Shown piece by piece: positions 28,929-62,678 of a stretch of 64,000 nt of DNA (positions are counted from its first letter, which is position 1; each line of letters starts with the position of its first letter). The DNA is from Tetragenococcus osmophilus. GTDB lineage: Bacteria > Bacillota > Bacilli > Lactobacillales > Enterococcaceae. The notes under the pieces are model-generated. The model saw only the letters and a program-made list of their open reading frames with translations. It ran no database searches and was not told the origin of the DNA. The DNA is taken from positions 186,001 to 250,000 of the forward strand of contig NZ_CP027783.1 of the NCBI RefSeq assembly GCF_003795125.1, read 5' to 3'. The position numbers and the translations under genes were made by a program.

Positions 28929-29175
28929 TGAATGAACATAATATCCTCTTTTCAGTGTTCATTCAGTATCTGAATGAACATTACTTTGGCTTTTTAATGT
29001 TCATTCGACTACTGATTGGACATTACTTTGGCTTTTTAATGTTCATTCGACTACTGATTGGACATTACTTTGGCTTTTTAATGTTCATTCGACTACTGAT
29101 TGGACATTACTTTGGCTTTTTAATGTTCATTCGATTGTTGAATGGACATTAGAACTCCTTTTTAGTGCTCATTCG
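28929..29175. repeat. Array of 25-bp hairpins every 42 bp (TGTTCATTC family)
   Basis: Five hairpins with arms like TGTTCATTC/GAATGAACA (or GATTGGACA) start at 28956, 28998, 29040, 29082 and 29124. Each is 25 bp, with a 17-bp spacer (TTACTTTGGCTTTTTAA in four cases), so the period is exactly 42 bp. Half units lie at both ends. The three central units are identical, which suggests recent duplication or strong selection. It fills the gap between the fba promoter region and the pyrG terminator. An open frame runs through only because 42 is a multiple of three. Confidence 0.85.
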
Positions 29176-29187
29176 ACAATAAAAAAA

Positions 29188-29220
29188 CCCGAAAAGCTAA
29201 CTTACTGCTTTTCGAGTTTT
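29188..29220. terminator. Terminator after pyrG
   Basis: A 10-bp stem (CCCGAAAAGC/GCTTTTCGAG, one G-T pair) has T runs on both strands, just after the pyrG stop. Confidence 0.88.
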
Positions 29221-29228
29221 TTACTTTT

Positions 29229-30836
29229 TTAAACTTCTTCTTTTGTTCCCATTGCAGCACCTACAAAAGCCTTTATTAGTCTTTGCGGACGGTTAGGTCG
29301 TGAGATTAATTCTGGATGGAATTGGCATCCAACAAAGAATTTATTCGTAGGAATTTCTACAATTTCTGCTAAATGATTATCTGGAGAAACTCCTGAGAAA
29401 ATCATGCCGTTTTCTGTGAAAATGTCACGGTAATCATTATTAAATTCGTAACGATGACGATGACGTTCTTGTACAACTTCTTCTTGATAAGCTTGTGCTG
29501 TCTTGGTTCCTTCTTGGATTTTACAAGGATAAAGGCCTAAACGTAATGTGCCTCCCATATCCTCTACACCTTTTTGTTCAGTCATAAGATCAATGACATT
29601 ATGTGGTGTACGTGGATCTCTTTCAGTTGTATTCGCGTTTTCTAATCCAATGACGTTTCGTGCGAATTCAACACAAGCCATTTGCATACCTAAACAAATT
29701 CCTAAAAATGGAATATCGTTCTCTCGAGCATAACGGATCGTAGCGATCTTACCTTCTATCCCACGATCACCAAAGCCACCTGGAACTAAAATGCCGTCTG
29801 CTCCTTGTAGTCGTTCTGCGACATTTTCTTCTGTAATTTCAGCTGAATTAATCAAATCAATTTGAACCTTAGCATCATAAGCAAATCCTCCATGCTTCAA
29901 TGCTTCCATCAATGAAAGATAAGCATCAGGTAGTTCGACATATTTACCTATTAAAGCAATACGTACTGTCTTTTTCAAATTTAAAACTCGGTCGATCAAA
30001 CCTTGCCATTCGCTCATATCCGCTTCTGGCGCATCTAATTTCAAATGATTCAAAACAATCTGGTCCATCCCTTGTTTTTGCAAATTCATCGGAATGGAAT
30101 AAAGAGTTTCAACATCTAATGACTCAATAACGGCTTCTGGAGCCACATCACAAAATTGTGCAAGTTTATTTTTAGTGCTTTGCCCAATAGGTTCCTCTGT
30201 TCTTACTACCAACAAATTAGGTTGGATACCTAAGCCACGCAATTCTTTCACGCTATGTTGTGTTGGTTTTGTTTTCATTTCGCCAGCTGCCTTCAAATAA
30301 GGAATTAACGTAGTATGAACATATAAGACATTATCAGCTCCAACTTCGCCTTTCATTTGACGCAAAGCTTCTAGAAAAGGCAAGGATTCAATGTCTCCTA
30401 CTGTACCTCCGACTTCTGTAATAATCACATCTGAATCAGTCATACTTGCAGCTCGCATGATTTTTTCTTTAATTTCATTTGTAATATGAGGGATTACTTG
30501 GACAGTAGCCCCTAAGTATTCGCCCTTTCTTTCTTTGCGAATTACTTCAGAATAAACTTTCCCGGTCGTCACATTGGAATATTGATTTAAATTAATATCA
30601 ATAAACCGTTCATAGTGTCCTAAGTCTAAATCTGTTTCTGCGCCATCGTCAGTCACAAATACTTCGCCGTGTTGATATGGGCTCATCGTTCCTGGATCGA
30701 CATTAATGTAAGGATCAAATTTTTGAATCGTTACTTTTAATCCTCGATTTTTCAATAAACGTCCTAACGAAGCAGCTACAATTCCTTTTCCAATAGATGA
30801 AACAACGCCGCCAGTTACGAAAATGTATTTGGTCAT
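29229..30836 (-). CDS. pyrG: CTP synthase
   Basis: A 535-residue enzyme that aminates UTP to CTP. The N-terminal synthetase domain starts with [14 protein letters not shown] (P-loop) and contains [20 protein letters not shown], cited as the family landmark [11 protein letters not shown]. The C-terminal class I glutamine amidotransferase has [11 protein letters not shown] with the nucleophile Cys, and FHPELISRP with the catalytic His and Glu. AAGGAG precedes the ATG. The leader carries a terminator and a G-rich transcript start, so CTP-dependent attenuation is likely. Confidence 0.97.
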
Positions 30837-30884
30837 AATTAAAAACTCCTTATCTTTTTTCAGGTGCTACATTTAGAAATAAAA

Positions 30885-30961
30885 GAAAACTCCCTATTCG
30901 ATTTGAATAGGGAGCATTATTTTTCTAAAACGATCAAAGCTCTTTTACTATAAGAGCGCCC
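30885..30961 (-). promoter_or_regulatory. pyrG leader attenuator (CTP-responsive type)
   Basis: The predicted transcript starts GGGCGCTC at 30961 and runs to a terminator with stem CTCCCTATTC/GAATAGGGAG (30890-30899 and 30905-30914) and TTTTCTTTT. In Bacillus and Lactococcus pyrG, low CTP causes extra G residues at the 5' GGGC start, and these pair with the CU-rich arm of the terminator. The CTCCC arm and GGGC start here fit that mechanism. This is inference from the family. Confidence 0.75.
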
Positions 30962-30968
30962 AAGCAAA

Positions 30969-30997
30969 ATATTACCTCGTTCAATTTAGAAAGTCAA
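30969..30997 (-). promoter_or_regulatory. Predicted pyrG promoter
   Basis: TTGACT (30992-30997) and TAATAT (30969-30974) on the minus strand are 17 bp apart and place the start at the GGG of 30961. It lies just after the glnA stop codon. Confidence 0.7.
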
Positions 30998-31015
30998 TCT
31001 TTATTCTCATTTTTA

Positions 31016-32356
31016 TTAATAAAGTTCTAAATATTGTTCTCTTTCCCATTCTGATACTGTCTGTCTAAAGGCGGACCATTCCATTTGTTTGGCTTCAATA
31101 AAGTTCTCATAAATATGAGAGCCTAGCGCTTCGATAACTACTTGATCATCTTTTAATTCTTTTAGCGCATTATGCAAAGTTGAAGGCAAATCAAAGATTT
31201 GTGCTTTTGTCCGCTCTTCTTCTGTCATAACATAAATGTTGCGGTCTACTCCTTCTGGAGGTACTAATTCATTTTGAATACCATCAAGTCCAGCTTCTAC
31301 TAATGTAGCTAATGCTAAGTATGGATTCGCGGATGGATCTACTGAACGCAACTCTAAACGAGTAGACATTCCGCGTGAAGAAGGCACCCGAATTAAAGGC
31401 GAACGATTATGACCAGACCAAGCCACGTGCACTGGCGCTTCATAACCAGGAACTAAGCGTTTATAGGAGTTTACCGTTGGATCACAAACAGCAGTGTAAG
31501 CACGAGCATGTTTAATCAAACCGGCTAAAAATTGGTAAGCTGTTTGGCTTAACTCTAATTCGCCATTTTCATCATAAAAGGCGTTTTTCTCTCCTTTAAA
31601 CAAAGACATATTACAATGCATGCCAGATCCGGCAATGCCATCCATTGGTTTAGGCATGAAAGTAGCATGTAGTCCATATTTTCTTGCGATGGTTTTTACT
31701 ACTAACTTAAAGGTTTGGATATTATCACATGCGTCGATAGCGTCAGCGTATTTAAAATCAATTTCGTGTTGACCAGGCGCAGCTTCGTGGTGAGAAGCTT
31801 CGACTTCAAATCCTAATTTTTCTAATTCTAATACAATATCCCGTCGGCAATTTTCCCCTAAATCCATAGGGGCGAAATCAAAGTAACCGCCGTGGTCATT
31901 TAAATTTTTCGTAATGTTTTCGTCTTTGTCTAATTGAAATAAGAAAAATTCAGGTTCTGGGCCTAATTCAAAAGAAGTAAAACCTAAATCTTGCATATGA
32001 TACAAAACACGTTTCAAATTTCCCCGCGGATCACCAGCAAAAGGCGTCCCATCTGAATTATAGATATCACAAATTAAACGAGCCACTTTTCCATGTTCAG
32101 CTTCCCAAGGAAAGATCATCCAAGTGGTTAAGTCAGGACATAAATACATATCACTTTCTTCAATACGTACAAATCCTTCGATAGAAGAACCGTCAAACAT
32201 CATTTTATTATCTAAGACCTTATCAATTTGGCTTATCGGTACTTCCACATTTTTTATCATACCGCTAACGTCGGTAAACATTAAACGTAAAAATCGGACA
32301 TTCTCGTTTTGGGCAATTTCTTTTATCTGTTCTGCAGTATAGTCTACTTTGGGCAT
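31016..32356 (-). CDS. glnA: Glutamine synthetase, type I
   Basis: A 446-residue ATP-dependent ligase forming glutamine from glutamate and ammonia. Active-site motifs are FDGSSIEGF, the [10 protein letters not shown] metal site, [11 protein letters not shown] and the NPYLALA region. Length and absence of an adenylylation-type tail fit the GSI-alpha class of Firmicutes, which is controlled by feedback and GlnR and not by adenylylation. It follows glnR by 48 bp in one operon. Confidence 0.97.
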
Positions 32357-32404
32357 AAATTTTTTCCTTCCTTTTTCCGCGGTTTATAGTAATAGACATG
32401 TAAC

Positions 32405-32785
32405 TTATAATTTGGGACCTTTCATGCCAAATGGATTTTTTTGGCTTAATCCACCTTGTGAAAGAATCTCATCGTAAAAAATACGCCTAACATCTTTATC
32501 TGTAAGTGGTTTTTTATCTTTTGCTTTTTTCTCATCTTCTTTTTGCATCTTATAAACATGCTTGATTCCTGCCATATTTAACCCATCAGCAAGATAGTCT
32601 TTAATCTCAAGCAGTACGTCGATGTCATTTAGCGAGTATAAGCGTCGATTGCCTTCACTTCTTTCTGGGTAAATTAAATTTTGTTCCTCATAGTAACGAA
32701 TTTGACGAGCCGTTAAATCCGTCAGTTTCATGACTGTACCAATTGGAAAAACAGACAACGAACGTCGCAGCTCTTTTTCACTCAT
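32405..32785 (-). CDS. glnR: GlnR, MerR-family nitrogen repressor
   Basis: A 126-residue repressor with an N-terminal MerR winged helix (about 10-80; VMKLTDLTARQIRYYEEQNLI, cited in part). The C-terminal tail senses feedback-inhibited glutamine synthetase in Bacillus. It is the first gene of glnRA and has a GlnR box in its own promoter, so it is autoregulated. AGGAG precedes the ATG. Confidence 0.95.
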   Translation of the reverse strand: MSEKELRRSLSVFPIGTVMKLTDLTARQIRYYEEQNLIYPERSEGNRRLYSLNDIDVLLEIKDYLADGLNMAGIKHVYKMQKEDEKKAKDKKPLTDKDVRRIFYDEILSQGGLSQKNPFGMKGPKL

Positions 32786-32827
32786 ACGCTTTCTCCTCTT
32801 TCCTTATGTTGGTCAATCTACTTAGCA

Positions 32828-32856
32828 ACTATACCAATTGCTAAGTCCCCTGTCAA
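32828..32856 (-). promoter_or_regulatory. Predicted glnRA promoter
   Basis: TTGACA (32851-32856) and TATAGT (32828-32833) on the minus strand are exactly 17 bp apart. An imperfect palindrome CTTAGCAA/TTGCTAAG spans the -10. Confidence 0.8.
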
Positions 32857-32863
32857 CTAATTA

Positions 32864-32880
32864 TGTGACAAAACCTCACA
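32864..32880. promoter_or_regulatory. GlnR box
   Basis: TGTGACAAAACCTCACA fits the GlnR/TnrA consensus TGTNA-N7-TNACA exactly. It lies just upstream of the -35 of the glnRA promoter. Confidence 0.85.
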
Positions 32881-32881
32881 C

Positions 32882-32921
32882 AAAAAAAGCAGCGGCAGAA
32901 AAAATGCCTTTCTGCTGCTAC
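32882..32921 (-). terminator. Terminator after hflX
   Basis: An imperfect stem (AGCAGCGGCAGAAA against TTTCTGCTGCT) ends in a T7 run on the minus strand. It overlaps the last codons of hflX and closes the miaA-hflX unit. Confidence 0.8.
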
Positions 32922-34162
32922 TTTGCTTGATTCATTTTCGTAATGGCAAAGGAATTTTCCTTAGCAAAACCTTTAATTATATATTGTTGTGTATTTTCAT
33001 CAAAATCAGTTGTTATAACTAATGTATTTTCCTTTAATTTTTCTAACAAACGCCCTTCATCTGGGGCTAAAACTAGCGTATAAGGTTGCAGTTCTTCTTT
33101 CATAATCCTTTGAATAGCTTTTGTAAGTTTTTCCTTACTATTCGGATCATTAGCTGAAAGCAATACGTGCGGATACTGAGTAGGTACAAACTGCTTTTCA
33201 TCAATTAAGTCTGCTTTATTATAAACCGCTAAAACAGGGACATTACGCAAGTTTAAATCCTCCATCAGCTGCACCACAGTTTGTTCTTGTTGTTGTCGAT
33301 TATCAGCAGAAGCATCAATTACATGCAAAATTAAATCCATATTTTGGCTTTCTTCTAAAGTAGAATGAAAAGCATCTACTAGTTGAGTTGGTAAGTCTTG
33401 GATAAACCCAACAGTGTCTGTTACCGTTACTTCAAAGCCTTCGGGCAGACGCCATTTTTTTGTTAGTGGATCTAAGGTAGCAAACAGCTGATCTTTTTCA
33501 TACGTATTTGCGCTAGTTAATAAATTTAATAGCGTCGACTTTCCCGCATTCGTATATCCAACTAGACCAATTTGGTATACTTCTTGTTCGTTGCGCTGTT
33601 GGCGAGTACGTCGGCGATGTTCTTCGACTTCTTTTAACTCATGACGAATGCTTGTCATTTTTTTACGAATCAAACGACGATCTGTCTCTAATTTCGTTTC
33701 ACCAGGACCACGAGTTCCGATACCGCCGCCTAAACGAGATAAAGTTTTCCCTTGCCCGATAATTCGAGGAAAGGAATATTCCAATTGAGCTAATTCAACT
33801 TGTAGTTTCCCTTCTTTAGAACGGGCACGTTTAGCAAAAATATCTAAGATTAATTGAATACGGTCAATTGTTGGTGTTTCTAACGTATTTTCAATAATTT
33901 GACCCTGGCGTGGCGTTAAGGCACGGTTAAAAATAACTAAATCAATATTTTCTTCATCGATGGTTTGTCGCAATTCTTCCATTTTTCCTTTACCAATAAT
34001 CGTCTGATGATCCACTTGGTTTCGGCTTTGTTCAATATTTGTTATAACATCTCCATGCGCTGTTTCCGCCAAATTAGCTAACTCTGCCATAGAGTCTTCA
34101 AAAGTAAGATAATTTTCCGACGTTTTTAACCCAACTAAAGCCACTCGTTCTTTTTTTGTCAT
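32918..34162 (-). CDS. hflX: GTPase HflX
   Basis: A 414-residue ribosome-associated GTPase that helps recover stalled or heat-damaged ribosomes. The N-terminal HflX domain has the glycine-rich RLGGGIGTRGPGETKLE linker, followed by a coiled coil. The G domain shows G1 GYTNAGKST, G3 DTVGF and G4 NKAD. ATG 34162 follows GGAGGTG; it begins one base after the miaA stop codon, so translation is coupled. Confidence 0.95.
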   Translation of the reverse strand: MTKKERVALVGLKTSENYLTFEDSMAELANLAETAHGDVITNIEQSRNQVDHQTIIGKGKMEELRQTIDEENIDLVIFNRALTPRQGQIIENTLETPTIDRIQLILDIFAKRARSKEGKLQVELAQLEYSFPRIIGQGKTLSRLGGGIGTRGPGETKLETDRRLIRKKMTSIRHELKEVEEHRRRTRQQRNEQEVYQIGLVGYTNAGKSTLLNLLTSANTYEKDQLFATLDPLTKKWRLPEGFEVTVTDTVGFIQDLPTQLVDAFHSTLEESQNMDLILHVIDASADNRQQQEQTVVQLMEDLNLRNVPVLAVYNKADLIDEKQFVPTQYPHVLLSANDPNSKEKLTKAIQRIMKEELQPYTLVLAPDEGRLLEKLKENTLVITTDFDENTQQYIIKGFAKENSFAITKMNQAK

Positions 34163-34163
34163 T

Positions 34164-35075
34164 TCACACCTCCAACCAATGACTAACTTCATTTTCTATT
34201 TCTGTAAATGCTTGAGGATCTTCTAGTAAATCGAACCAATGAAAAGACATCCGATTGTAAAACCAAGTAAGCTGTCTTTTAGCATAACGTCTTGAATTTC
34301 TTTTGATTTGTTCTGTTGTTTCCGCTAATGACTGTTCGCCAGAAAAATAAGGGAAAAATTCTTTATAGCCAATTCCTTTTGCTGCTTGGCTATCAGGAAA
34401 TTGCTTAACTAATTCAGCCTCTTTTGCTAAACCATCTTGTAGCATGGATTCTACACGGTTATTTATTCTTTCATACAAAACAGACCGCTCCGAAGTCAGA
34501 CCGATCATAAAACTATCGTATAATTTTTCCGGTGTTTTTTTAGGAGCAGCGATACTTTCTCCTGTTGTTTCCATCACTTCCAAGGCACGAATCACTTTAC
34601 GTTGATTATTCATATGAATCTTTGTAGCTGCTAGCGGATCTTTTTCTTGCAGTAATTCAAAAAGGGCTTCTGGGCCTTTATCTTGGGCAAAGTCTTCATA
34701 CTTTTGACGAATACGTTCATCTTTTTTTTGAGCACCTAACTGATAATCATAAAGGAGGGATTGAATATATAAGCCAGTCCCTCCTACAAGAATAGGTAAA
34801 TTCCCTCTATGATAAATTTCTGTGATTTTTTGTCTAGCTTGAGTTTGAAAATCAGCTACCGAATATGGATCTCCAATATCACAAATATCAATTAAATGAT
34901 GGCTGACACCTTGCTTTTCTTCTTCTGTAATTTTAGCGGTGCCAATATTTAGCCCGCGATAAATTTGCATAGAATCTCCACTGATAACTTCACCATTAAA
35001 TTGCTGTGCTAAACGAATGCTCAAAGCGGTTTTTCCTACAGCTGTTGGCCCTGCAATGACTAAGACTTTTTTCAT
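34164..35075 (-). CDS. miaA: tRNA dimethylallyltransferase
   Basis: A 303-residue enzyme that adds dimethylallyl to A37 of tRNAs reading UNN codons. The P-loop is AGPTAVGKTALS, followed by GDSMQIYRGLNIGTAK and the GGTGLYIQSLL and RNSRRYAKRQLTWF motifs. It overlaps the upstream GDPD gene by four bases and is next to hflX, the conserved miaA-hflX order. Confidence 0.96.
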   Translation of the reverse strand: MKKVLVIAGPTAVGKTALSIRLAQQFNGEVISGDSMQIYRGLNIGTAKITEEEKQGVSHHLIDICDIGDPYSVADFQTQARQKITEIYHRGNLPILVGGTGLYIQSLLYDYQLGAQKKDERIRQKYEDFAQDKGPEALFELLQEKDPLAATKIHMNNQRKVIRALEVMETTGESIAAPKKTPEKLYDSFMIGLTSERSVLYERINNRVESMLQDGLAKEAELVKQFPDSQAAKGIGYKEFFPYFSGEQSLAETTEQIKRNSRRYAKRQLTWFYNRMSFHWFDLLEDPQAFTEIENEVSHWLEV

Positions 35076-35809
35076 GTTTTTTGTTGGTTCCTTCTTTTAG
35101 CTGCTAACATTTTTTCTGGATAGTCCGTAAATACACCAGCTACTCGCAGTTCCATAACCTTAGCTAATGTTTCTTCGTCATTGACTGTCCACGGTCGAAC
35201 ATCTATTGGGTAATTGGGAACTTCGGCATCATGATCTAAAGCCCAGTCAATTCGTGGGTGAATGCCTTTAATATAAGAACGATCCAAAGCCATCGTAGGC
35301 GCTTCTTCTGAATCCCCCATGACAAGATCGATGCGAGCTTTAGGCTCAAGTTTATGAATTCGTTCTAAAGTATCAACGTTTAAACTACAATACCAATAAG
35401 TAAAAGGCCAATCTTGGCTCGTCATAAGGTTTGAAACTTTTTCTTCAATCTCAGGATATTGTTCAACGTTTGTTTTAAATTCGATCTCTACAATTCCTCG
35501 ATAATTACGCGCAACAAGCAAATCAGTTACTTCTTTTAACGTAGGAACTTTGGTTGATTCATATTTATCATCAAACCAACTTCCTGCATTCAAGGCTTTC
35601 ATATCGGCAAGAGTTTTATCTTTAATAGCTCCTTTACCATTGGTTGTGCGATTTACTTGTTCATCGTGCATAACTACAATTTCATTATCCTTAGTTAATT
35701 GAACATCTAATTCAATTCCTTCTGCACCTGCACGAATCGCTTCAGCAAACGAAGGCAGCGTATTCTCCGGCCCTGTCCCACTGGCTCCTCTATGAGCAAA
35801 AATTTTCAT
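35072..35809 (-). CDS. Glycerophosphodiester phosphodiesterase
   Basis: A 245-residue GDPD-family enzyme that releases glycerol-3-phosphate from deacylated phospholipids. Motifs are AHRGASGTGPENTLPSF at the N terminus, EGIELDVQLTKD and VVMHDEQVNRTTNG, with the paired His, Glu and Asp of the active site. It has no signal peptide and so is cytoplasmic. ATG 35809 follows GGAGTGAGA by good spacing; an upstream in-frame start lies 17 codons away without a site. It is the first gene of the GDPD-miaA-hflX unit. Confidence 0.92.
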   Translation of the reverse strand: MKIFAHRGASGTGPENTLPSFAEAIRAGAEGIELDVQLTKDNEIVVMHDEQVNRTTNGKGAIKDKTLADMKALNAGSWFDDKYESTKVPTLKEVTDLLVARNYRGIVEIEFKTNVEQYPEIEEKVSNLMTSQDWPFTYWYCSLNVDTLERIHKLEPKARIDLVMGDSEEAPTMALDRSYIKGIHPRIDWALDHDAEVPNYPIDVRPWTVNDEETLAKVMELRVAGVFTDYPEKMLAAKRRNQQKT

Positions 35810-35900
35810 CGATCTCACTCCAATCAGAGTTATTGTAACACGTATAGAAAAAATCAACAAAAAAAGAAGGGAAATGCGGAGCGCTCGCTTCTTTTAGACT

Positions 35901-36419: not shown

Positions 36420-36496
36420 CTAACTTGCCTCCTCGTTTAATCGTTACTGATGAGTTTATCTTACCAAATTTTTTCTGTTATATCCAAGGTTTTATA

Positions 36497-36526: not shown

Positions 36527-36609
36527 AGCTATTAGAAAAAGTTAATTTGACGTGATATAATACTATTTAAACGTCATAATTTTCTATGAATGAAAGGGAG
36601 GAACATTAT

Positions 36610-37191: not shown

Positions 37192-37200
37192 ACAATAAAA

Positions 37201-37246
37201 ATGCCATTATCTTTACTATTTCAGGTAAAGATAATGGCATTTTTTG
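37201..37246 (+). terminator. Terminator after clpP
   Basis: A 15-bp perfect stem (arms 37201-37215 and 37226-37240) is followed by TTTTTTG, ten bases after the stop codon. After the hairpin array that follows, bases 37401-37529 hold nothing I can identify. Confidence 0.92.
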
Positions 37247-37277
37247 TATTCAAACAATTTTCTAAGGAAATGAAGAG

Positions 37278-37400
37278 GACTTATGTATTGAAAGTTAATT
37301 CAGGGCATAGATCTTTACGACTTATGTCCTGAAAGTTGATTCAGGTCATAGATCCTTACGACTTATGTTCTGAAAGTTAATTCAGATCATAAGTTAAGCG
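37278..37400. repeat. Hairpin array, three units every 41 bp (TTATGTCCTGAA family)
   Basis: Units start at 37278, 37319 and 37360. Each is an imperfect palindrome of about 32 bp (arms like CTTATGTCCTGAA and TTCAGGTCATAG) plus a 9-bp spacer (ATCTTTAC, ATCCTTAC types). The array is preceded by TTCTAAGGAAATG, shared with the array at 40390. It lies between convergent clpP and the response regulator. Confidence 0.85.
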
Positions 37401-40356: not shown

Positions 40357-40389
40357 TGCTTATATAAGACTTCTAAGGAAATGCGGGTA

Positions 40390-40466
40390 GACTTATGTCC
40401 TGAAAGTCATCTCAGATCATAGATCCTTATGACTTATGTCCTAAAAACTAATTCAGGTCATAAGTC
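40390..40466. repeat. Hairpin array, two units every 41 bp (TTATGTCCTGAA family)
   Basis: Units start at 40390 and 40431. Arms are TTATGTCCTGAAA/CTCAGATCATAG and TTATGTCCTAAAA/TTCAGGTCATAAG. TTCTAAGGAAATG precedes the first unit, as in the array at 37278. It lies between two terminators. Confidence 0.8.
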
Positions 40467-40488
40467 TTTCTTTAAAGCTATATAAAAA

Positions 40489-40525
40489 AACGCGGCGCTG
40501 TTTTGAAGACAAGCGTCGCGTTTTT
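40489..40525. terminator. Terminator after the ABC exporter operon
   Basis: An 11-bp stem (AACGCGGCGCT/AGCGTCGCGTT) has A7 and T5 on its two sides, four bases from the exporter stop codon. Confidence 0.88.
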
Positions 40526-40528
40526 CTA

Positions 40529-49511: not shown

Positions 49512-49580
49512 GTTATTTTCACCTCAGGTTGTATTATAACAAATTCCAAACCCATATACTATGAGAAGAAAATAAAAGCT

Positions 49581-49781
49581 GACTTATGTTCTGAGTTTAT
49601 TTTCAGGTCATAAATCCATTTGATCTATGTACTGAAATTACTCTCAGAACATCGTTTCCCTCTTTTTTTATCCCAAAACTTCTTTTCAGGACATAACTCC
49701 TGCTACTTTATGTACTGAGTTAGTTTTCAGGTCATAACTTCATCCGATTTATGTACTGAAATCATACTCAGTACATAGATT
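49581..49781. repeat. Hairpin array, about five units every 41 bp (TTATGTCCTGAA family)
   Basis: Unit starts are near 49581, 49622, 49664, 49705 and 49746. Arms are like CTTATGTTCTGA/TTTCAGGTCATAA and TTATGTACTGAAA/CTCAGTACATAG. The third unit has a degenerate left arm, but its spacing is kept. It lies between folC and the end of valS. Confidence 0.83.
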
Positions 49782-49812
49782 CAAGCTCGAGAAAAAAGTA
49801 CTTTTTGATAAT

Positions 49813-49894
49813 AAAATATCCGAACTACAGAGAAATTCCTTCTATGATTAGTTGTCACAGTAGCAATCTCATCAAATATAGTTCGGATACTTTT
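49813..49894. repeat. Long inverted repeat, copy 2, after valS
   Basis: AAAATATCCGAACTA (49813-49827) and TATAGTTCGGATA (49877-49889) form the stem. The interior differs from copy 1 except for ATCAAATATAG beside the right arm. It lies 15 bases from the valS stop codon and probably terminates it. Confidence 0.85.
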
Positions 49895-49908
49895 GGAGCT
49901 TTTTTTAA

Positions 49909-52876: not shown

Positions 52877-52877
52877 T

Positions 52878-54152: not shown

Positions 54153-54287
54153 TTGCCCGTCCCCTTTTTGTTAATGTATTCACATAAAAGTTTACCACGG
54201 CTTTTTTAATTTAGCAACAAGAAGGGAGTTTATCTATAAACCTTCTTTTTAAATCTGAAAAAAGTCCGATAACTTTGAATTCTAATA

Positions 54288-54488
54288 CTATTGGTGGGAC
54301 ATTAAACGATGTGGCACCAATCTATATGTTATTGGTGGCATCTTTCTTCGATGTGCCTCCAATCCGTAAGTTATTGGTAGTAACTTTCTCGGTGTGCCAC
54401 CAATCCGTAAGTTATTGGTAGTAACTTTCTCGATGTGCCTCCGATCTGCAAATTATTGGTGGCATCTCTTTTGATGTGCCTCCAATAA
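54288..54488. repeat. Hairpin array, five units every 41-42 bp (ATTGGTGGCAC family)
   Basis: ATTGG starts at 54290, 54331, 54373, 54414 and 54455. Each unit pairs ATTGGTGGCA-like and TGTGCCTCCAAT-like arms around a 9-12-base loop, and a spacer such as CCGTAAGTT follows. The sequence is unrelated to the other arrays, but the spacing is the same. It lies between the rex start and the thiI terminator. Confidence 0.85.
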
Positions 54489-54556
54489 ATTATTGCATAA
54501 TAACATAGCTAATTACTGATTAAGATATTGCTCACATTTTCATTAATTGTATCTAG

Positions 54557-54584
54557 AAAAAAAGAGAGCCTAGCTAGGCTCTCT
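54557..54584 (-). terminator. Terminator after thiI
   Basis: A 10-bp stem (AGAGAGCCTA/TAGGCTCTCT) with T6 on the minus strand lies 15 bases after the thiI stop codon. Confidence 0.9.
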
Positions 54585-54598
54585 CAAAAATTTATTTT

Positions 54599-55810
54599 TT
54601 ATAATAATTCAGCAAATTCGTCCGCTTGTTCTTGAGGATTTTCTGGCAAAATTTGGTCAACTTTAATATTGGCCAAAGCACGCTCAACTAAACCTGAAAT
54701 GTCTAGTCTTTCTTCATATTGATGAACTTTATCTAAGTGAGGACGGGTTTTAGGTTGTGTAGGTGCAAAAATTGTACAACAATCCTCAAAAGGTTGAATG
54801 GACAAGTCAAAAGTATCGATTTGTTGTGCTGTATCAATAATTTCTAGTTTATCCATCGTAGCTACTGGTCGAATAATGGGTGTGTCCGTAACTTCATTGA
54901 TTGCCACCATACTTTGTAAAGTTTGTGAAGCTACTTGACCTAAAGATTCGCCATTTAAAATAACCAAACCTCGACGCAATTGGCGAATACTATCTGTTAG
55001 ACGCAACATCATACGTCGTGTGATCGTCATCCAATAACCTTCAGGCACTTTATTTTTTATTTCTTCTTGTACTTCAGTAAATGGCACTTCAATAAATTGG
55101 ATTTGCCCTACATAAGGCGCGAGTTTTGCCGTAAGGTCTTTGGCTTTTTGTAAAGCTTGTTCACTTGTATAAGGTGGACTGGCAAAATGAACTGCCTCAA
55201 TTTCCACTCCACGTTTCATTGCCATATAGCCAGCCACTGGTGAATCAATTCCTCCAGAAAGCATTAACATTCCTTTGCCGCTTGTACCAACTGGCAGACC
55301 TGCTGCCCCGGAAATTGTTTCATAAGATAAAAAGGCTCCATTACTACGTATCTCTACTCGTAAATTGATATCAGGCTTTTTCATTTGTACTTTAATATTA
55401 GGAAAACAATCAATAACCGCATCGCCTACTGTTACATTTAATTCATCACTGGTTTGTTCAAATGTGTGGTCACTACGTCTGGCAGTCACTTTAAACGTTT
55501 CTTCTCCAGTATAAATTTCTTTCATTATCTCTTGGGCACATTGCTTAATTTGCTCAATATCTTTTTCTAAGCGTATACTTGGCGAAAAATTTTGAATGCC
55601 AAACACTTTTTGTAATTTAGGAATAATCAAATCGCTATCTTCCCCATTTAAAACCAAATGCATACGATCACGATCGGCATGAATCTTTAGTGCCGGAAAA
55701 TCAATAAGCGCTTGGCGTACATTTGAAGCAAGTTTCATAATAAATGACCGACGATTCTTCCCTTTTGTCGATAGTTCCCCATAGCGAACCATAATTTCAG
55801 AATATTTCAC
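54599..55810 (-). CDS. thiI: tRNA 4-thiouridine synthetase
   Basis: A 403-residue enzyme with an N-terminal ferredoxin-like and THUMP region (about 1-165) and a PP-loop domain with [12 protein letters not shown]. It lacks the rhodanese domain, as is usual in Firmicutes, and takes sulfur from the adjacent cysteine desulfurase. A Cys pair in EDCCTIFAP is near residue 343. The start is GTG 55810, after AGGAGG. Confidence 0.95.
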
Positions 55811-55821
55811 TAAAACACCTC

Positions 55822-56964
55822 CTAGTTAATTTTTGAAAAACGTTGATATAATTGATTGAATACAACCATAAACTGCTCAACTTCTGCTACCGTATTACTT
55901 TCATCTAAACTAATTCTTATCGCGCAAGTTGCCAATGCGCTGGCTACATTCATAGCAGCTAATGTACTTGACGCTGTATTTTTTTTACTTGAACAAGCGC
56001 TAGTCGTTGAGGTAATAATTTCTTTTTCCTCTAAAGCATGAACTAAAACTTCTCCGCGGATTCCTTTTAATGCAAGGCATAAAATATGAGGAGCCCCATC
56101 TTTTTCTGGAGAAAAGATCGTCACTTTGTCATAATTACGGAGTTCCTCAATCAGAGTTGCTTTTAAGTTCATTAGGTGCTCAGGTCTTTGAGCTATTTTT
56201 TCAAAGGTCATGCGCAACGCTCTTGCCATCGCGACGATGGCTGGCACGTTTTCTGTGCCACTACGTTGCTCACCTTCTTGTCCGCCGCCTGTCATTAATG
56301 GTTGCAAACGACGCCCTTTCTTCCAGTAAATAAAGCCCACGCCTCGCGGACCATGAAATTTATGCGCCGAAAAGGCAGCAAAATCTACCCGTGAGGTCAG
56401 CCATTCTTGTGTATCAATTTTAGCAATTGCTTGCACTGCGTCTACATGAAAATGAATCTTAGGGTATTTTTCTAACAATTTACTAATCTCTTGAATCGGT
56501 TGTATTGTACCTACTTCATTATTAACAGCCATCACAGAAACCAATATTGTATCTTCTCTAATCAATTCTGCAAGCTGCTCAACATCAACAATTCCTTCTT
56601 CAGTCACTGGAGCTTGGTCAATCTCAAACCCAAAATTTGCTAATTGTTCAGCTGTCTTTTTCACTGCGGGATGCTCAATACTAGAAATAATCAAGTGTTT
56701 TCCATACGATTGCTTTTCAAAAGCAGTCCCTTTTAAAATCCAGTTGTCACCTTCTGTACCACCACTAGTAAAAGCGATCTCTTCATTTGATACTTGAAGT
56801 GTGTCGGCAATTTGTTTACGCGCTTGTTCTAATAAACGACTTGCTTGAACTCCTAGGTAATGTAAGCTGGAAGGATTTCCGAAAACTCGCTTACTTGTTT
56901 TTACATATGTATCTAAACTTGCAGGATAAATTTCTGTTGTTGCACTATTATCAAAATAGATCAT
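55822..56964 (-). CDS. Cysteine desulfurase (NifS/IscS family), sulfur donor for ThiI
   Basis: A 380-residue PLP enzyme. The PLP Lys is in [13 protein letters not shown] and the active Cys in [11 protein letters not shown] (about residue 323). The N-terminal YFDNSATTE motif is standard. It is encoded 11 bases before thiI and supplies persulfide for thiouridine. In related genomes ezrA lies next upstream; here a group II intron separates them. Confidence 0.94.
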
Positions 56965-57040
56965 TTATCTACGATCCTCTCTTTCAAAATACTGTTTCAT
57001 TATATCCACATCCGTCCTTTGTTTCAAGTTACAAGGCTGA

Positions 57041-57111
57041 ATAGGGTAGAGGGGAAATAAATTTCCGCCCCTCCCGTCGCACCGTACGTACGGTCCTCGT
57101 ATACGGCGCTA
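57041..57111 (-). ncRNA. Group II intron domains V and VI
   Basis: Domain V: GCGCCGTA pairs with TACGGTGC, with AGC at its base. Domain VI: GGGAGGGG pairs with CCCCTCTACCC, leaving a bulged A as the branch-point candidate near the 3' end. Confidence 0.8.
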
Positions 57112-57125
57112 CATTTGTACTGTTT

Positions 57126-58424
57126 TCACGCTTTATTTAGATAGTAGGATAAAGGATCAACCAATCCAGGTCGATCCTTTTTCTTTATGGCTAAAACTTT
57201 CGGACTTAACGTAAAGTTGACAACGTCCATCCCGCATTTCCTATACCAACCTAATCTAGAATTAGCGACCTTATAAATGTCTTCTTTCTTGAAATGACAA
57301 TTGAATAGTCGATTCAATTGTTGTAAATTCATATAGATTCGTCGCGGAAGTTTCCATTGCTTTATAATAATGACACGGACTTTATGTCGTAACCATTGAC
57401 CAAACTTCGCTAGATAGGTTTTCATACTGCCGATACGGTAGTAATTGATCCAGCCTCTTATAATCTGGTTCAGCTTTGTAAATGTCACAGCTAAAGGTCG
57501 CGACACGGCATGTTTCCTTTTAAGAACTTCTTTGGTTTTGTCATAGAGTTTTGTTTTACTGACTTTACTCGGTTTACACTGCCAACCTTTTTGGTTCTTC
57601 CAAAAGGTAAATCCTAAAAATTGACTTTGTGTCGGTCGTACGACCTTAGTTTTTGTGACATTGATTTGCAAGAATAGTTTTCTTTCAATCCAACCAGTAA
57701 TAGATTTCATCACTCGATTGGCTGCCATCTCGCTTTTGACAAAAATATCCGTATCATCCGCGTAACGAACGAAATGCAGCCCCCTTGCTTCTAATTCTTT
57801 ATCCAGTTTATCCAGATAAATATTCGCTAAAACTGGGCTTAACGGACCTCCTTGCGGAACTCCGGTTTCGTTCGGGCTAACGAAGCCATTCTCCATAATA
57901 CCTGCTTTTAAGAAAACACGTATTAAATGAAGGGTTTCTCTATCTTTGACCCGTTCTCTAAGGGTCGAGATTAATTGATCATGATTAACTGTATCAAAAT
58001 ATTTCTCAATATCCATATCAATGAGCCATTCATAGCCTTCATTCAAGTAATCAAGGACTTTTTCAATCGCTTGATGAGCACTTCGACCCGGGCGGAAACC
58101 ATAACTGGTTTCGCTGAAGTGGACATCGAAGATGCGACTTAATTGTTGCGCAGTTGCCTGTTGCACCACACGGTCCACCACACTTGGAATCCCTAAAGGT
58201 CTTTGCTTCCCATCAGATTTAGGGATATAAACTCTTTTAACCGCCTTTGGTCGGTAGGTCATCGACCGAATCTCCTGAACAAGGGTATGTCCATGTTGAT
58301 AGAAATAATGGTCGAGTTCATCGACTGTCATCTCATCAACACCCGGAGCCCCTTTATTCTTTTTGACCTGTTCGATGGCTTGCGTGATATTTTGATGACT
58401 CGTAATCTTTTCAATGAATCTCAT
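57126..58424 (-). CDS. ltrA: Group II intron reverse transcriptase/maturase
   Basis: A 432-residue intron-encoded protein. Reverse transcriptase motifs are RVYIPKSDGKQRPLGIP, IDMDIEKYFDTVNHD, GVPQGGPLSPVLANIYLD and VRYADDTDIF with the catalytic YADD. The maturase (domain X) region has FTKLNQIIRGWINYYR. No C-terminal HNH endonuclease is present, in line with class C. The frame is intact, so splicing and mobility may still occur. GAGGAAC precedes the ATG. Confidence 0.95.
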   Translation of the reverse strand: MRFIEKITSHQNITQAIEQVKKNKGAPGVDEMTVDELDHYFYQHGHTLVQEIRSMTYRPKAVKRVYIPKSDGKQRPLGIPSVVDRVVQQATAQQLSRIFDVHFSETSYGFRPGRSAHQAIEKVLDYLNEGYEWLIDMDIEKYFDTVNHDQLISTLRERVKDRETLHLIRVFLKAGIMENGFVSPNETGVPQGGPLSPVLANIYLDKLDKELEARGLHFVRYADDTDIFVKSEMAANRVMKSITGWIERKLFLQINVTKTKVVRPTQSQFLGFTFWKNQKGWQCKPSKVSKTKLYDKTKEVLKRKHAVSRPLAVTFTKLNQIIRGWINYYRIGSMKTYLAKFGQWLRHKVRVIIIKQWKLPRRIYMNLQQLNRLFNCHFKKEDIYKVANSRLGWYRKCGMDVVNFTLSPKVLAIKKKDRPGLVDPLSYYLNKA

Positions 58425-58933
58425 GCGCTGTTCCTCCTCTAGTCGTAGATTTATCCAAGACCGCCCCCACTATCTTTCCCATCAATAGTTACGTTCTATT
58501 GTTCTAGGGTATCCTCGTTTTCGGACTCCTTGGACATTTTCTTCTAGCGATTCACACTATACAAACATTCGGCCCTTTACTACCTAAACAGTAGCTACTA
58601 TGGCCTCAGCTGACTTCTTACGACAAACCTTTTTCGACCGTTCGTTCACAAACGTCCGTAAGAGCTCCCAGGGTAAGACATTTATCTTTCTCTCCATAAC
58701 CTCTTGATTTACTGTCTTGGTTTTACGTTTACCTTTTGGACTTCAGCTTGATATGCAGCCTTATCCACCATTTAGCCTCATCAAGTTCCTGTTCGTAGGC
58801 TTGAAAGATTTGCGACACCACTTCCTTCACCCCATCATCACTGATTTCAGCTTGTGGCTCGCTACGCTTGGCGGTAACTACCTGCGACTGGACTTTCACC
58901 AGCTAGATAAATGCCATGCCTGGCACACATAAT

Positions 58934-59035
58934 AAAATACCCGAACTATAAAAAGATTCGTTCGGCTTTTTCGCAAGCCCTTATCGCAAATACACGATAA
59001 TTAGCAAATCTTATCAAATATAGCTCGGATATTTT
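58934..59035. repeat. Long inverted repeat, copy 3, between ezrA and the intron
   Basis: AAAATACCCGAACTATA (58934-58950) and TATAGCTCGGATATTTT (59019-59035) form the stem. The interior also has AAAAGAT beside the left arm and ATCAAATATAG at the right arm, as in other copies. It acts as the probable ezrA terminator and is the site next to which the intron inserted. Confidence 0.85.
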
Positions 59036-59061
59036 CATTTTTCTTATAATACAGATTCTAG

Positions 59062-60789
59062 TTATTGCACTAGACTTTCGCGATTTTCATAATAAAAATC
59101 TTCAATTTGCTTAAATACTCCAGGCTCTACTCTTTCTAAAGCATTACCAATTTCATCAAGCGCGTCTTTATAACGATATTCATAATTAAATAAATCCAGT
59201 GCTCGTTCAATTGCAGTTCTTACTTCCGTATGGGAGTAACGATAACGATTAGCATATTGCATCATTTGCTCTGTCAAAGCTGCTTCGTCGATCATATCGT
59301 GGGTTTTTTCTGTTAAAATGCTCAGGTCCTCTTCACAGATAGTCACCATTTGATTTACTTCATCTATATCTACACGCGTCCGATTTAAGGTATCATCTAA
59401 TTCTTCTATACGGTCCGTCACATTATAAAAAGAATCTAAATAATCACTTGGTAAACCAGGAAGTCGTTGCTTTTCTACGAAACGTTTCAGATTACGTAGT
59501 CTAAACTCAAGATCCTCTGCTTTTTCCTGTGCCGCTTTTTCGTCCTTACGTAGATCACGCAATGACTGATCGATTTCAACTTGTTCGCTTTCCACACTAT
59601 CTAAAATCTTATAAGCGTCCTTATAAAAACTTTCTACTTCGGAATAAGGAATTTCTTCAGCTTCCAATTTAGGATCAACAGAATCATTTCGCCGTGCAAT
59701 CTCTTCAATTTCTGATTGGAAACTTCTAGCTCTAGCTAATTCATTATGATTCAACGTATAACTTTGTGAAGTATGGTCAAGTTCGATTAATAGCTGACGA
59801 TTGTTGTTGGTAGCATGTACAATAGCATCGGCAAGCGCCTTGCGATTTTGTGTCACATAACGTTTCGCGGCAATTTCACGTTCCATCACTTCATATAGTT
59901 GATCAATTTGTTGAGCTGTTTCAACATTGGCTTCTTCTACCGTTGTGATCTCAACTTTTTCTAAATCATCTAATGTATTTTGTACTCGGTGATTTACATG
60001 TTGGATATTTTCTGCAAAATTTTCTACAGGAAGTACATACCCTTGTTCCATTAGTGTTTGATAACCTTCAGTGATTTCTTCTAATTGCTCAGGAAATGTT
60101 TTTTGTAGACTTTCATACTCGTCCGGGATCTTTCGCATCAGTTCTTCTAATACAAAAGTATTTTTTTCAGCCGTTTCTAACACATCATGAGCTTCCACTG
60201 GGTCCCCTGAAGTATTCAAAGTAATAAAGCTTGTAAATTCACTTTCCACATTTTTTATTTGTTTTTGAATTTCAGCAAAAGCGGGGCCGAACTGATCGCC
60301 ACGTTCTCTTAAAGCTTTTTTCATCTCTTCATAAACATTTAAAGCTTGTTGGATTTTTTCTGAGTTTCTTTCTTCACTTTCGCGTAACTCTTTGAATCCA
60401 TCACGGATTTTTTGAATTTCAGCTTCCATATTATCCATGGTCGCCTGTGCTTTAGCAATCGCCGTTTGCGCTTTGACAAAACGAAAAGCTTCGTTTAGAT
60501 TTTCTACTTCAAAAATTTGGCTTTCCAGCTCCGCAAATTTTTCTGTAGAAATTTTCTCCCACTTTTCCTCCCATTCTTTAAAAGAGGACTGACTCTGACC
60601 GACCAAATGCTTTTTTCTTATCTCTTCGATCTCATCATTAATAGGTAAATCAAGCAGCGCTTTTTTACGATCCTCTAAGGCTTTTAGTTTGTCCTGATTT
60701 TTTTTACGCATATAAAATCCTACGCCGTAGATAATCGCTGCAATAACTATAATAGCCATAACGATTCCTATGATTAGATTACTTCCCAT
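59062..60789 (-). CDS. ezrA: Septation ring formation regulator EzrA
   Basis: A 575-residue division protein with one N-terminal membrane helix (about 4-24) and long coiled-coil spectrin-like repeats through the cytoplasmic part. It tunes FtsZ ring placement and links division to wall synthesis in Gram-positive cocci. GGAGGC precedes the ATG. It is the last gene before the intron-interrupted junction with the cysteine desulfurase gene. Confidence 0.95.
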   Translation of the reverse strand: MGSNLIIGIVMAIIVIAAIIYGVGFYMRKKNQDKLKALEDRKKALLDLPINDEIEEIRKKHLVGQSQSSFKEWEEKWEKISTEKFAELESQIFEVENLNEAFRFVKAQTAIAKAQATMDNMEAEIQKIRDGFKELRESEERNSEKIQQALNVYEEMKKALRERGDQFGPAFAEIQKQIKNVESEFTSFITLNTSGDPVEAHDVLETAEKNTFVLEELMRKIPDEYESLQKTFPEQLEEITEGYQTLMEQGYVLPVENFAENIQHVNHRVQNTLDDLEKVEITTVEEANVETAQQIDQLYEVMEREIAAKRYVTQNRKALADAIVHATNNNRQLLIELDHTSQSYTLNHNELARARSFQSEIEEIARRNDSVDPKLEAEEIPYSEVESFYKDAYKILDSVESEQVEIDQSLRDLRKDEKAAQEKAEDLEFRLRNLKRFVEKQRLPGLPSDYLDSFYNVTDRIEELDDTLNRTRVDIDEVNQMVTICEEDLSILTEKTHDMIDEAALTEQMMQYANRYRYSHTEVRTAIERALDLFNYEYRYKDALDEIGNALERVEPGVFKQIEDFYYENRESLVQ

Positions 60790-61080
60790 TTAGCTGCCTC
60801 CATTTTTGATTCTTTTCATCAACTTGTAATAAAAGACAGATGAATTGATTTCCTTTTTACTGAATCCCATAGAGTTACAAACTTTTCTACAGGAAAGACA
60901 TCTAGAACGATTATAGCATAAAGACCAGCAGCAATCACTATGAATTCTTAAAAAAATAATACTTCCACAAGGCAGTTTTTTCCATTTTTTTGATTTACTA
61001 TTGCTTGAAACCTTGATTTATAATCCATTTAACGGTACGCTATTAAAAAAGTTTTTGAATTAGACAGGCGGAGATAATTT

Positions 61081-62430
61081 ATGAAAGCAGCAAAATTTGG
61101 CGGTAGTTCATTAGCAAATGCCACTCAGCTAAAAAAAGTCGTAGAAATTGTCAAGGCAGATGATACTCGTCGTTTTATTGTCGTTTCTGCTCCTGGCAAA
61201 AGATTTGCAACAGACAAAAAAGTAACCGATTTGCTAGTTGAACTCTATCAAAAACGGAATAAAAATGAATCAACTGATTCTCTGATTAATGAAATTTTTG
61301 AACACTACAAAGAAATCGGACAAGACTTTCAAATTGAAGAAAGTATCTTGCAACAAATTTATCAATCACTCCTTGATTTAAAAGAATTAGCTATTGAAGA
61401 CAATCCTCACTTTTTTGATAAAATTTTATCAAGTGGCGAAAACAATAATGCTAAATTAATTGCAGGTGTGTTACAAGCAGAAGGTGTTAACGCCCGTTAT
61501 ATTGATCCTCAAGAATTAGGGATTATCGTCTCAGACGAGCCCTTGAACGCTCGTATTTTATCAAGCTCTTATAAATCAATTCATCATTGGCACAATAGCC
61601 CTGAAATTTTAATTATCCCTGGCTTTTTTGGCTATACCGAAAAAGGCGAAGTTTGTACCTTTTCTCGAGGAGGGTCAGACATTACTGGCGCAATTATCGC
61701 TGCAGCAATGAATGTAGACTTGTATGAAAACTTTACGGATGTTAACGGTATTTCCGCTGCTCATCCCGGTGTTATTCATCATCCTGAGCCTATTCGCGAA
61801 ATTACTTACCGTGAAATGCGTGAACTTTCTTATGGAGGATTTTCAATTTTTCACGATGAAGCACTAATGCCTTCTTACCGCGCCAAAATTCCGGTAGTAA
61901 TCAAAAACACCAATGACCCTAGTCATCCGGGGACTTTGATTACCACTGAACGGAAAAACAAGGACCAACCTATTGTTGGAATTGCCAGCGACAGTGGCTT
62001 TAGCATGATTTATCTTAATAAATATTTGATGAACCGGGAAGTCGGATTTACCTTAAGAGTACTCGAAATTTTCAAAGACTTTGGTTTAAATTATGAACAT
62101 ATGCCTTCAGGAATTGATGATATTTCTATTATCTTACGAGCAAATCAACTTACTCCGGAAATAGAAGAAGAATTATTACGCAAAATCGCTTATGTCATTG
62201 ACCCAGATGAGCTACGAATTACACATAACCTTTCGATGGTTATGATCGTTGGCGAAGGGATGAAACAGCGAGTAGGAAGCATGGCTGAAAGCACAGCAGC
62301 TTTGGCTAGGAAAAAAATTAATATCGAAATGATTAACCAAGGTGCTTCCGAGGTTAGTATTATGTTTGGTATTCATGAAGATCGCGAACAAGATGCTATC
62401 CGGACTTTGTATTATACTTTTTTTGAATAA
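61081..62430 (+). CDS. Aspartate kinase
   Basis: A 449-residue kinase of the first step from aspartate to lysine, threonine, methionine and diaminopimelate. The N-terminal KFGGSSLAN and the RGGSDITGAIIA nucleotide/aspartate motif are clear. Two ACT domains at the C terminus (about 300-449) give feedback control. No lysine riboswitch is visible in the 290 bp upstream. GGCGGAG precedes the ATG. It is a single gene. Confidence 0.93.
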   Translation: MKAAKFGGSSLANATQLKKVVEIVKADDTRRFIVVSAPGKRFATDKKVTDLLVELYQKRNKNESTDSLINEIFEHYKEIGQDFQIEESILQQIYQSLLDLKELAIEDNPHFFDKILSSGENNNAKLIAGVLQAEGVNARYIDPQELGIIVSDEPLNARILSSSYKSIHHWHNSPEILIIPGFFGYTEKGEVCTFSRGGSDITGAIIAAAMNVDLYENFTDVNGISAAHPGVIHHPEPIREITYREMRELSYGGFSIFHDEALMPSYRAKIPVVIKNTNDPSHPGTLITTERKNKDQPIVGIASDSGFSMIYLNKYLMNREVGFTLRVLEIFKDFGLNYEHMPSGIDDISIILRANQLTPEIEEELLRKIAYVIDPDELRITHNLSMVMIVGEGMKQRVGSMAESTAALARKKINIEMINQGASEVSIMFGIHEDREQDAIRTLYYTFFE

Positions 62431-62446
62431 AATGAAGCTAAACTGA

Positions 62447-62678
62447 AAGCTATGTCCTGAATTAATTTTTAGGACATAAGTCCATCTGATTTATGTCCTG
62501 TAGAAAATTACAGGACATAGATCTACTCAACTTATGTCCTGTAATTGCCATCTACCCTTTTTATGAAGTGATTTTTTGCCAAATAGGACATAAGTACGCC
62601 AAACTTATGTCCTGAATCAAATTTTAGCACATAACTTTTTAAAACCTATGTTCTTAAATTAAATTCAGGACATAGATA
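62447..62678. repeat. Hairpin array, about six units, mostly every 41 bp (TTATGTCCTGAA family)
   Basis: Unit starts are near 62447, 62488, 62529, about 62565, 62602 and 62643. Arms are very regular in the second unit (TTATGTCCTGTA/TACAGGACATAG). The fourth unit is degenerate and shortened. It lies between convergent aspartate kinase and the peptide-binding gene. Confidence 0.83.

Follow-up and report, generated by a model that had tools for sequence, protein, structure and literature searches.

Intergenic hairpin arrays of a shared 41-42 bp period in Tetragenococcus and their probable pairing with NERD-domain proteins

Why should repeats that have no sequence in common be built to the same length? 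The question is raised by 64,000 nucleotides of Tetragenococcus osmophilus (contig NZ_CP027783.1, positions 186,001 to 250,000; 36% GC, in a genome of 2.38 Mb), referred to here as the window. A preliminary description had placed six intergenic arrays of hairpin-forming palindromes at 28929, 37278, 40390, 49581, 54288 and 62447, and all six are present there. They are covered by three word families, F1 (ATTGGNGGCA), F2 (TATGTNCTGA) and F3 (GAATGAACAT). Most probably these arrays pair with paralogous proteins of the NERD-domain family, and their period would originate in the protein, a judgement that leaves their role aside. It draws on the linkage of genes and arrays, their co-occurrence across genomes, the agreement of words with the protein tree, the constraint on lengths and the conservation of words at scattered sites. 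From these we infer that a NERD protein binds the array, as an oligomer.

NERD-domain genes beside the arrays

The comparison covered the source genome (G000) and eight other genomes of the genus (G001 to G008), of which G006 and G008 were thinly sampled. In G000, each of four near-full NERD genes is followed on its 3' side by an array, and the four arrays belong to different families; two of these stretches had been fetched for their arrays, one had been placed on an F3 match and one was taken blind. A large array of each window family is found directly 3' of a NERD gene, and the proteins are paralogs. The F2 array of locus L248 and the F1 array of locus L249 each lie 10-20 bp 3' of such a gene, with 39% identity between the encoded proteins; the F3 array and an array of a fourth family each have a further paralog on their 5' side. 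The gene matching F3 is located elsewhere in the G000 genome, at C1:683678-684643(+), and those matching F2 and F1 are C1:2234776-2235765(-) and C1:353206-354192(-). A fifth G000 paralog is truncated and without an array.

Beyond G000, a profile built from the four proteins gives 38 matches over all nine genomes of the genus, six of them in G000. Five NERD genes with an array were contained in the initial sequence, namely the four of G000 and the F2 ortholog in G005. Among 20 further 3' flanks, 14 carry a 40-42-bp array of their own word, a flank being passed at a lag of 40-42 with z of at least 3.5, a threshold chosen after the flanks had been viewed. The same rule passes 43 of 649 control genes (Fisher 6e-12), and after merging of orthologs the NERD flanks still pass in 11 of 16 cases (Fisher 1e-9). 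An identity of at least 0.6 is also reached in all 14 passing flanks, and in 32 of the 649 controls. Units of F1 occur no more than about 230 bp from the 3' end of the NERD gene at G002:C12, G003:C76:61663, G004:2545130 and G007:C20, and units of F3 at the same distance at G007:C6 and beside a broken copy at G005:C41. Over the genus, 25 of the 32 matches looked at have an array, a count that leaves out six matches: G008:C152, where the contig ends, and five fragments, two from G003 and one each from G001, G005 and G006. Separately, at loci L251 (G000) and L269 (G005), the short CTAGAGT array of the NERD gene is followed by a transposase-like gene, which by eye we take to be of the IS256 type.

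All ten proteins that were tested match Pfam NERD (PF08378) with 35 to 65 bits, against a gathering score of 22.1. By eye, they consist of a PD-(D/E)xK nuclease-like N-terminus, a four-cysteine zinc ribbon and a helical C-terminus. Four cysteines and the active-site-like E38, D71 and K86, candidate residues of the kind typical of a PD-(D/E)xK centre, show no variation in an alignment of 11 proteins, whose most divergent member is 19% identical to the first.

How far does the pairing extend? At E 1e-15 the profile matches 9 of 105 Enterococcaceae genomes, which are exactly those of the window's genus. Units of F3 are found in 7 of the 105, all in the genus, and units of F1 in 9, of which eight belong to the genus and the ninth, from outside it, gives a single weak match; F2, searched in the genus only, is present in four of the nine genomes. 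Outside the family, 80 named loci around clpP were sampled, and the profile detects six NERD genes in them, five in Jeotgalicoccus and one in Mesobacillus. In the five Jeotgalicoccus species, a 51-bp array lies directly 3' of the NERD gene, which is in two frames at L069; the array of L063 has a different word. An array stands on the flank of six out of six NERD genes at these loci, versus 16 of 1103 other genes, and six of these 16 are far neighbours of the NERD-linked arrays. If general, the pairing would be common and overlooked, because the profile occurs in 75 of 398 Bacilli genomes and 37 of 146 genera, many of the genomes having several copies. Words that are direct instead of inverted, about every 21 bp and with a pair period of 42, are seen at L087:4858-4950 in Psychrobacillus, L054:~10890-11140 in Rummeliibacillus and L098:18320-18430 in Mesobacillus; of the three, L098 alone shows a NERD gene.

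The words follow the proteins. A tree was made of 23 NERD proteins, including two open pieces from broken genes. In it, the F1 partners of four species form one clade (100/100), and the F3 and F2 partners likewise form one clade each, of two species. The three families, unrelated according to the preliminary description, are connected through their paralogous NERD proteins. Related words, judged by eye, are found in one clade of sister proteins (TTGATTAA, TTGAATAA, TTGAGTAA and CGGATAA) and in another (GGACATAA, GGACAAAA and AGCTCATAA). Over 19 proteins, words are the more alike the higher the identity of their proteins (r=0.44, 0 of 5000 permutations), also among pairs with less than 75% protein identity (r=0.30, 3 of 5000 permutations); the words were assigned automatically, and several that are plainly not the array word were all kept, a point against the pairing.

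Several further observations weigh against the pairing. Six of the 20 flanks fail, including those of the pseudogene L253 and the divergent broken copy L270; at L267 the NERD gene is apparently intact and has no array, and at L251, its ortholog L269 and L263, one or two units only can be recognized by eye. Arrays also occur away from NERD genes: the gene that ends 18 bp from an F2 array of nine units (L247) is not a NERD gene, none is visible around the two F2 arrays of L250, and no intact matching gene was seen for the F1 arrays in G001 and G005 or for F3 in G003. The dispersed words TGAATGAGC, AATGAAGGGAAG, AGGGAGT, TTGTTCTAT and CATTCTC are absent from the NERD flanks examined, and the 42-bp array of the Mesobacillus gene is on its 5' side. 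The structure model of the protein is poor, with a mean predicted local distance difference test score (pLDDT) of 52, and its best PDB match, at E=0.03, is not significant. This model has a weak likeness to Holliday-junction resolvases and other nucleases, none significant, and shows the order alpha-beta-beta-beta-alpha-beta, which is that expected of the PD-(D/E)xK fold. Finally, the periods of 41-42 and 51 bp are no proof of helical phasing.

Period, spacing and word conservation

The period claimed for the window holds well beyond it. The genome sample comprised 40 stretches of 20 kb and the window, 864 kb altogether with 459 intergenic regions (121 kb); at least two of the 40 stretches had been shifted to take in known F3 matches. 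Distances between the centres of intergenic palindromes peak at 20-21, 41-42, 62 and 82-84 bp, with 53 pairs at 20 bp and 35 at 41 bp, versus 0.0-0.2 in shuffles at the peak distances. A separate lattice of words at 20.5 bp was considered and rejected, this distance being half of 41 and an arithmetic outcome of inverted words. Tandem Repeats Finder detects 61 intergenic tandem arrays of period at least 25 bp in the genus samples, including five rows of clustered regularly interspaced short palindromic repeats (CRISPR). Among the other 56, the period is 40-42, 82-84 or 124 bp in 47, over many different words, so that the broad spread of periods that would have made the shared architecture a coincidence is not observed. 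The nine exceptions have periods of 31, 67 and 71 bp, 88-93 bp (five arrays) and 235 bp. A G+C-rich tandem family of period 88-93 bp, common to G000, G001 and G002 (G000 C1:1710473, L168, L201, L234 and L235), falls outside the 41-bp rule. At named loci of other genera, the same scan returned varied periods, and no palindrome-spacing peak of this kind was found at 17 other Enterococcus loci.

Half-sites were next located by word alone, with no spacing assumed, and steps of 12-34 bp between neighbours were counted. From one half-site start to the next, F2 alternates a loop step of 19 bp (60 of 61) with a spacer step of 22 bp (43 of 43), F3 has 23+19 bp (18 of 18 and 17 of 17) and F1 has 21+20 bp (27 of 28 and 22 of 23). 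Over longer distances, F2 departs from its frame in one pair at 40, four at 42, two at 73 and one at 114 bp, the three pairs at 73 and 114 being about 10 bp off. Arrays have about 2-10 units of 41/42 bp, and in nearly all cases the word opens them and its inverse closes them, which defines the hairpin unit. The earlier suggestion that hairpin and spacer lengths differ while their sum is kept was right as regards the sum; the 28929 family, described as 25+17, is about 35+7, because its arrays begin and end with whole hairpins.

These lengths persist under heavy turnover of letters. Loops and spacers differ at 49-69% of sites between arrays, where random sequence would differ at about 72%, as estimated from base composition. 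Ordinary intergenic DNA has accumulated 180 indels per 861 substitutions between G000 and G005 (63 pairs), and 14 per 103 (19 pairs) and 19 per 89 (21 pairs) in two further sets, that is 0.14-0.21 indels per substitution. Since the letters of loops and spacers vary freely and their lengths scarcely change, array spacing is constrained.

What is kept besides length is the word. In 12 F2 arrays at 12 sites, picked for a length of 196-197 bp out of 23 F2 arrays, pairwise identity is 0.87 in word columns and 0.44 elsewhere, which is the pattern to be expected of a reader of the word acting in trans. Between orthologous F2 arrays of G000 and G005, word changes (4 of 334) and spacer changes (10 of 415) are too few for a comparison. 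The stems were examined on three alignments of units: 39 of 46 matches for F2 (A1; four of other length and three near-duplicates omitted), 18 of 23 for F3 (A2; four false matches and one duplicate omitted) and 11 units for F1 (A3; six of seven matches, one being false, and five taken from the array frame). Although 86-92% of stem cells are paired, compensatory change between the hairpin arms of F2 is at the level of shuffles and the arms change independently. For F3, one measure of covariation out of five lies above nearly all shuffles (7 of 500 reach its value), and F1 gives no convincing covariation. With compensatory change absent in F2 and weak at best in F3 and F1, it is probably the word and not the stem that is kept.

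This bears directly on the proposal that the arrays are transcribed as a series of hairpins for termination or RNA stability. They can fold and they adjoin terminators; the loops and linkers of an RNA, however, would need no fixed lengths on both sides, and covariation in F2 does not exceed shuffles and is weak at most in the other two families. The reading is highly improbable, and the RNA-structure option of the preliminary description finds no support. An RNA element was rejected on the covariation of the three families, and a known RNA family on the Rfam search of the window, which gave no match at the arrays. Nor was a match to a known miniature inverted-repeat transposable element or repetitive extragenic palindrome (REP) seen, Rfam being the only repeat-bearing library searched.

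The evidence favours the core idea of that description, a spacing-based system that involves a DNA-binding protein, for which the NERD paralogs encoded beside arrays of the same word are candidates. The arrays would be chromosomal recognition arrays of this paralogous family, each paralog having a private word of about 10 bp. Inverted word pairs suit a dimer, one dimer per pair, and the distance from pair to pair would be fixed by the protein clade, at 41-42 bp here and 51 bp in Jeotgalicoccus. Bound dimers could stack on one face of the helix, because both distances are near whole helical turns: 41/42 bp is compatible with four turns, and the 51 bp of Jeotgalicoccus, near five turns, is compatible with the same view. 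One array would lie directly 3' of each NERD gene, the others being scattered over the ends of transcription units.

Placement and turnover of the arrays

As had been noted, the window arrays stand next to terminators: no more than about 70 bp separates any of the six from a terminator-like hairpin, identified by a scan in three cases and by eye in the others. The F3 array (28927..29177), with six units at 42 bp and the word GAATGAACAT/ATGTTCATTC, adjoins such a hairpin at 29182..29222 (by eye). Three units of F2 at 41 bp, with the word TATGTNCTGA/TCAGNACATA, form the array at 37277..37396, 3' of clpP, from which it is separated by a two-way terminator-like hairpin (37197..37244; scan). The F2 array at 40389..40467 has two units at 41 bp and adjoins a hairpin at 40484..40527 on the minus strand (by eye, not in the scan). 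At 49580..49782, 3' of valS, five F2 unit positions at 41 bp, the third degenerate, represent the commonest form of this family, a 202-203-bp array with five unit positions found in 8 of the 13 listed F2 arrays; it adjoins a terminator-like inverted repeat with a long loop, ATATCCGAACTA...TAGTTCGGATA (49815..49895; by eye, not in the scan). The F1 array (54286..54490) has five units of 41/42 bp and the word ATTGGNGGCA/TGCCNCCAAT, and its neighbouring hairpin is at 54562..54585 on the minus strand (scan). The last F2 array (62446..62679) has about five unit positions in a 41-bp frame, four of them clear; its middle part is degenerate and lacks 10 bp. It adjoins a hairpin at 62720..62733 (scan).

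Two observations concern the terminators themselves. The inverted repeat ATATCCGAACTA...TAGTTCGGATA is found again at further intervals of G000 and at the orthologous one of G007, where it stands within another hairpin, as if inserting into terminator loops. In L230 of G003, the ortholog of window positions 28736-29228, an F3 array and a second terminator-like hairpin lie inside the old terminator loop.

Placement in the genus was examined with 43 arrays of F1 to F3, two of which are at edges and some of which are orthologous to each other. The neighbouring genes of 41 arrays are co-directional in 31 cases, convergent in nine and divergent in one; according to the same rough gene calls, G000 intergenic regions of at least 150 bp comprise 169 co-directional, 37 convergent and 71 divergent ones. 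Divergent regions are thus avoided (1 of 41 versus 71 of 277, Fisher 2e-4), and all arrays but one lie 3' of some gene. Such placement may only be a mark of tolerance.

At orthologous sites, the presence of arrays varies, and the flanks are too diverged for exact ends to be fixed. The site of the 49580 array has an F2 array in G005 and none in G001-G004 and G006-G008; that of the 62446 array has a longer F2-type array in G008 and remnants in G003, and the array is gone in G005. Orthologous arrays in sister species can differ by exactly one unit (41 bp). Words change as well. At the 28929 site, the F3 word drifts over G000, G005, G003 and G007. At three sites, one family is replaced by another of equal period. 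The first has F2 in G000 but a GGGTYAG family in G003; at the second, G005 carries a TTGAATAA family, and G001 and G002 carry an AGGGAGT family. The third is the 54288 site, occupied by F1 in G000 and by a GCCCGGCA family in a longer interval of G006, while G002 and G003 give a weaker signal there of yet another family.

Could common descent alone account for this? An ancestral 41-bp array would have spread and its words drifted by homogenization within arrays, the common period being an inheritance, with no protein involved and the NERD gene hitch-hiking. The word drift at the F3 site and the homogenized units of several arrays would be expected on these terms. Lengths, however, are kept under heavy substitution, the same word is kept at scattered loci, one orthologous site is occupied by different families in different species, and NERD linkage with private words recurs in Enterococcaceae, Jeotgalicoccus and Mesobacillus. 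This explanation is very unlikely.

Given a protein that binds the arrays, its role may consist in a boundary function, selfish spread or defence. As the likeliest role we guess at a maintained site at the ends of transcription units, acting as boundary or roadblock: in scattered arrays, words and spacing have been retained although the intervening letters have changed freely, and neutral relics would not do so. More widely, and tentatively, this may be one case of a system common among bacteria, in which each genome has several NERD paralogs, each reading its own word with a period set in helical turns by the clade, the bound arrays being working sites at transcription-unit ends where the word turns over fast and the site and period persist.

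The selfish role concerns the same pairing. A nuclease of a selfish or half-domesticated pair, similar in kind to the REPtrons discussed below, would cut or nick the arrays and so drive their copying, the gain and loss of units and their spread, the scattered arrays being passengers, non-autonomous and tolerated where units end. The abundance of paralogs, the broken copies of the gene, the exact 41-bp difference between sister species, the recurrent five-unit form of F2, the avoidance of divergent regions and the F3 array inside a terminator loop in G003 all suit it. There is, however, little sign of recent array copying, since loops and spacers differ widely among scattered arrays while the words are kept, and the orthologous pairs examined include no clean case of a new insertion that duplicated its target. 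The one NERD protein queried had no match in the plasmid and phage collections, nor the one F2 array queried in the plasmid collection, and mobility on plasmids or phages was rejected on these results. The selfish role is possible, though doubtful.

A defensive role seems unlikely. Here, the arrays of the host would mark its own DNA for, or sequester, nucleases that attack array-less DNA, and the turnover of words would reflect an arms race. The nuclease-like residues are kept, the many paralogs have divergent words and some copies are broken, as this would lead one to expect; three of five proteins also have weak, partial matches to defence-protein models, but these are far below any cut-off.

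Relation to known repeat systems

Among the closest known systems is the REPtron, whose enzyme is a HuH transposase acting on single-stranded REP hairpins. As in REPtrons, repeats lie beside a gene and are dispersed between genes. The array-adjacent proteins, in contrast, match Pfam NERD and no transposase model, HuH/Y1 or other, and the arrays are phased and multi-unit, with the word rather than the stem apparently conserved. For want of the transposase that defines a REPtron, the pair does not qualify as one, though it still resembles one in working. Bacterial interspersed mosaic elements (BIMEs) are alternating REPs, tandem inverted palindromes between genes; the present arrays resemble them in this arrangement and differ in sequence and in protein, nor do we know of a period that unrelated families of BIMEs have in common. 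BOX elements of Streptococcus pneumoniae are modular intergenic hairpin repeats of variable copy number; unlike the arrays described here, they form one family with a different unit length, and to our knowledge they have no matching gene. REPtrons are described as a TnpA_REP (RAYT) gene with its own REPs in high copy, protein and repeat co-evolving (PMC8266576).

The EFAR/Efa-1 repeats are likewise intergenic and hairpin-forming, and come from the same bacterial family. Efa-1 of Enterococcus faecalis is described, in the portions of the account used here, as a 163-bp pair of adjacent stem-loops, whereas the present arrays have about 2-10 units of 41/42 bp, and no NERD partner appears in these portions (PMC2267715). 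Identity with EFAR was rejected on this difference of architecture, as far as that description goes (PMC2267715). The same paper also mentions BOX elements. With CRISPR, the arrays share fixed words separated by variable stretches of fixed length; these stretches are 6-11 nt between inverted words, however, and not unique spacers of about 30 nt. In the parts of PMC10910872 consulted, NERD is listed among putative CRISPR auxiliary genes in a figure legend, its single occurrence in the main text, and section 15 describes six other non-CRISPR array systems without NERD. That listing may reflect the same arrays, seen as CRISPR-like.

In the literature searched, no work was recognized as linking NERD proteins to hairpin arrays. 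The pairing would provide a class of unexplained intergenic repeats with a candidate partner, and the NERD family with a candidate target. Paralogs with readable words would constitute a natural experiment in the evolution of DNA specificity, and the purpose of hairpin repeats becomes directly testable with purified proteins.

Two other elements were encountered. The window contains a group II intron on the minus strand (57041-58847), with Rfam matches to three of its parts; the plasmid collection held no near match of positions 57041-58850. Elsewhere in G000, at C1:2242888-2247700 (L149), a long array with a period of about 61 bp and the repeat GATCACCCCCGCTTATGCGGG looks like CRISPR, presumably of type I-E.

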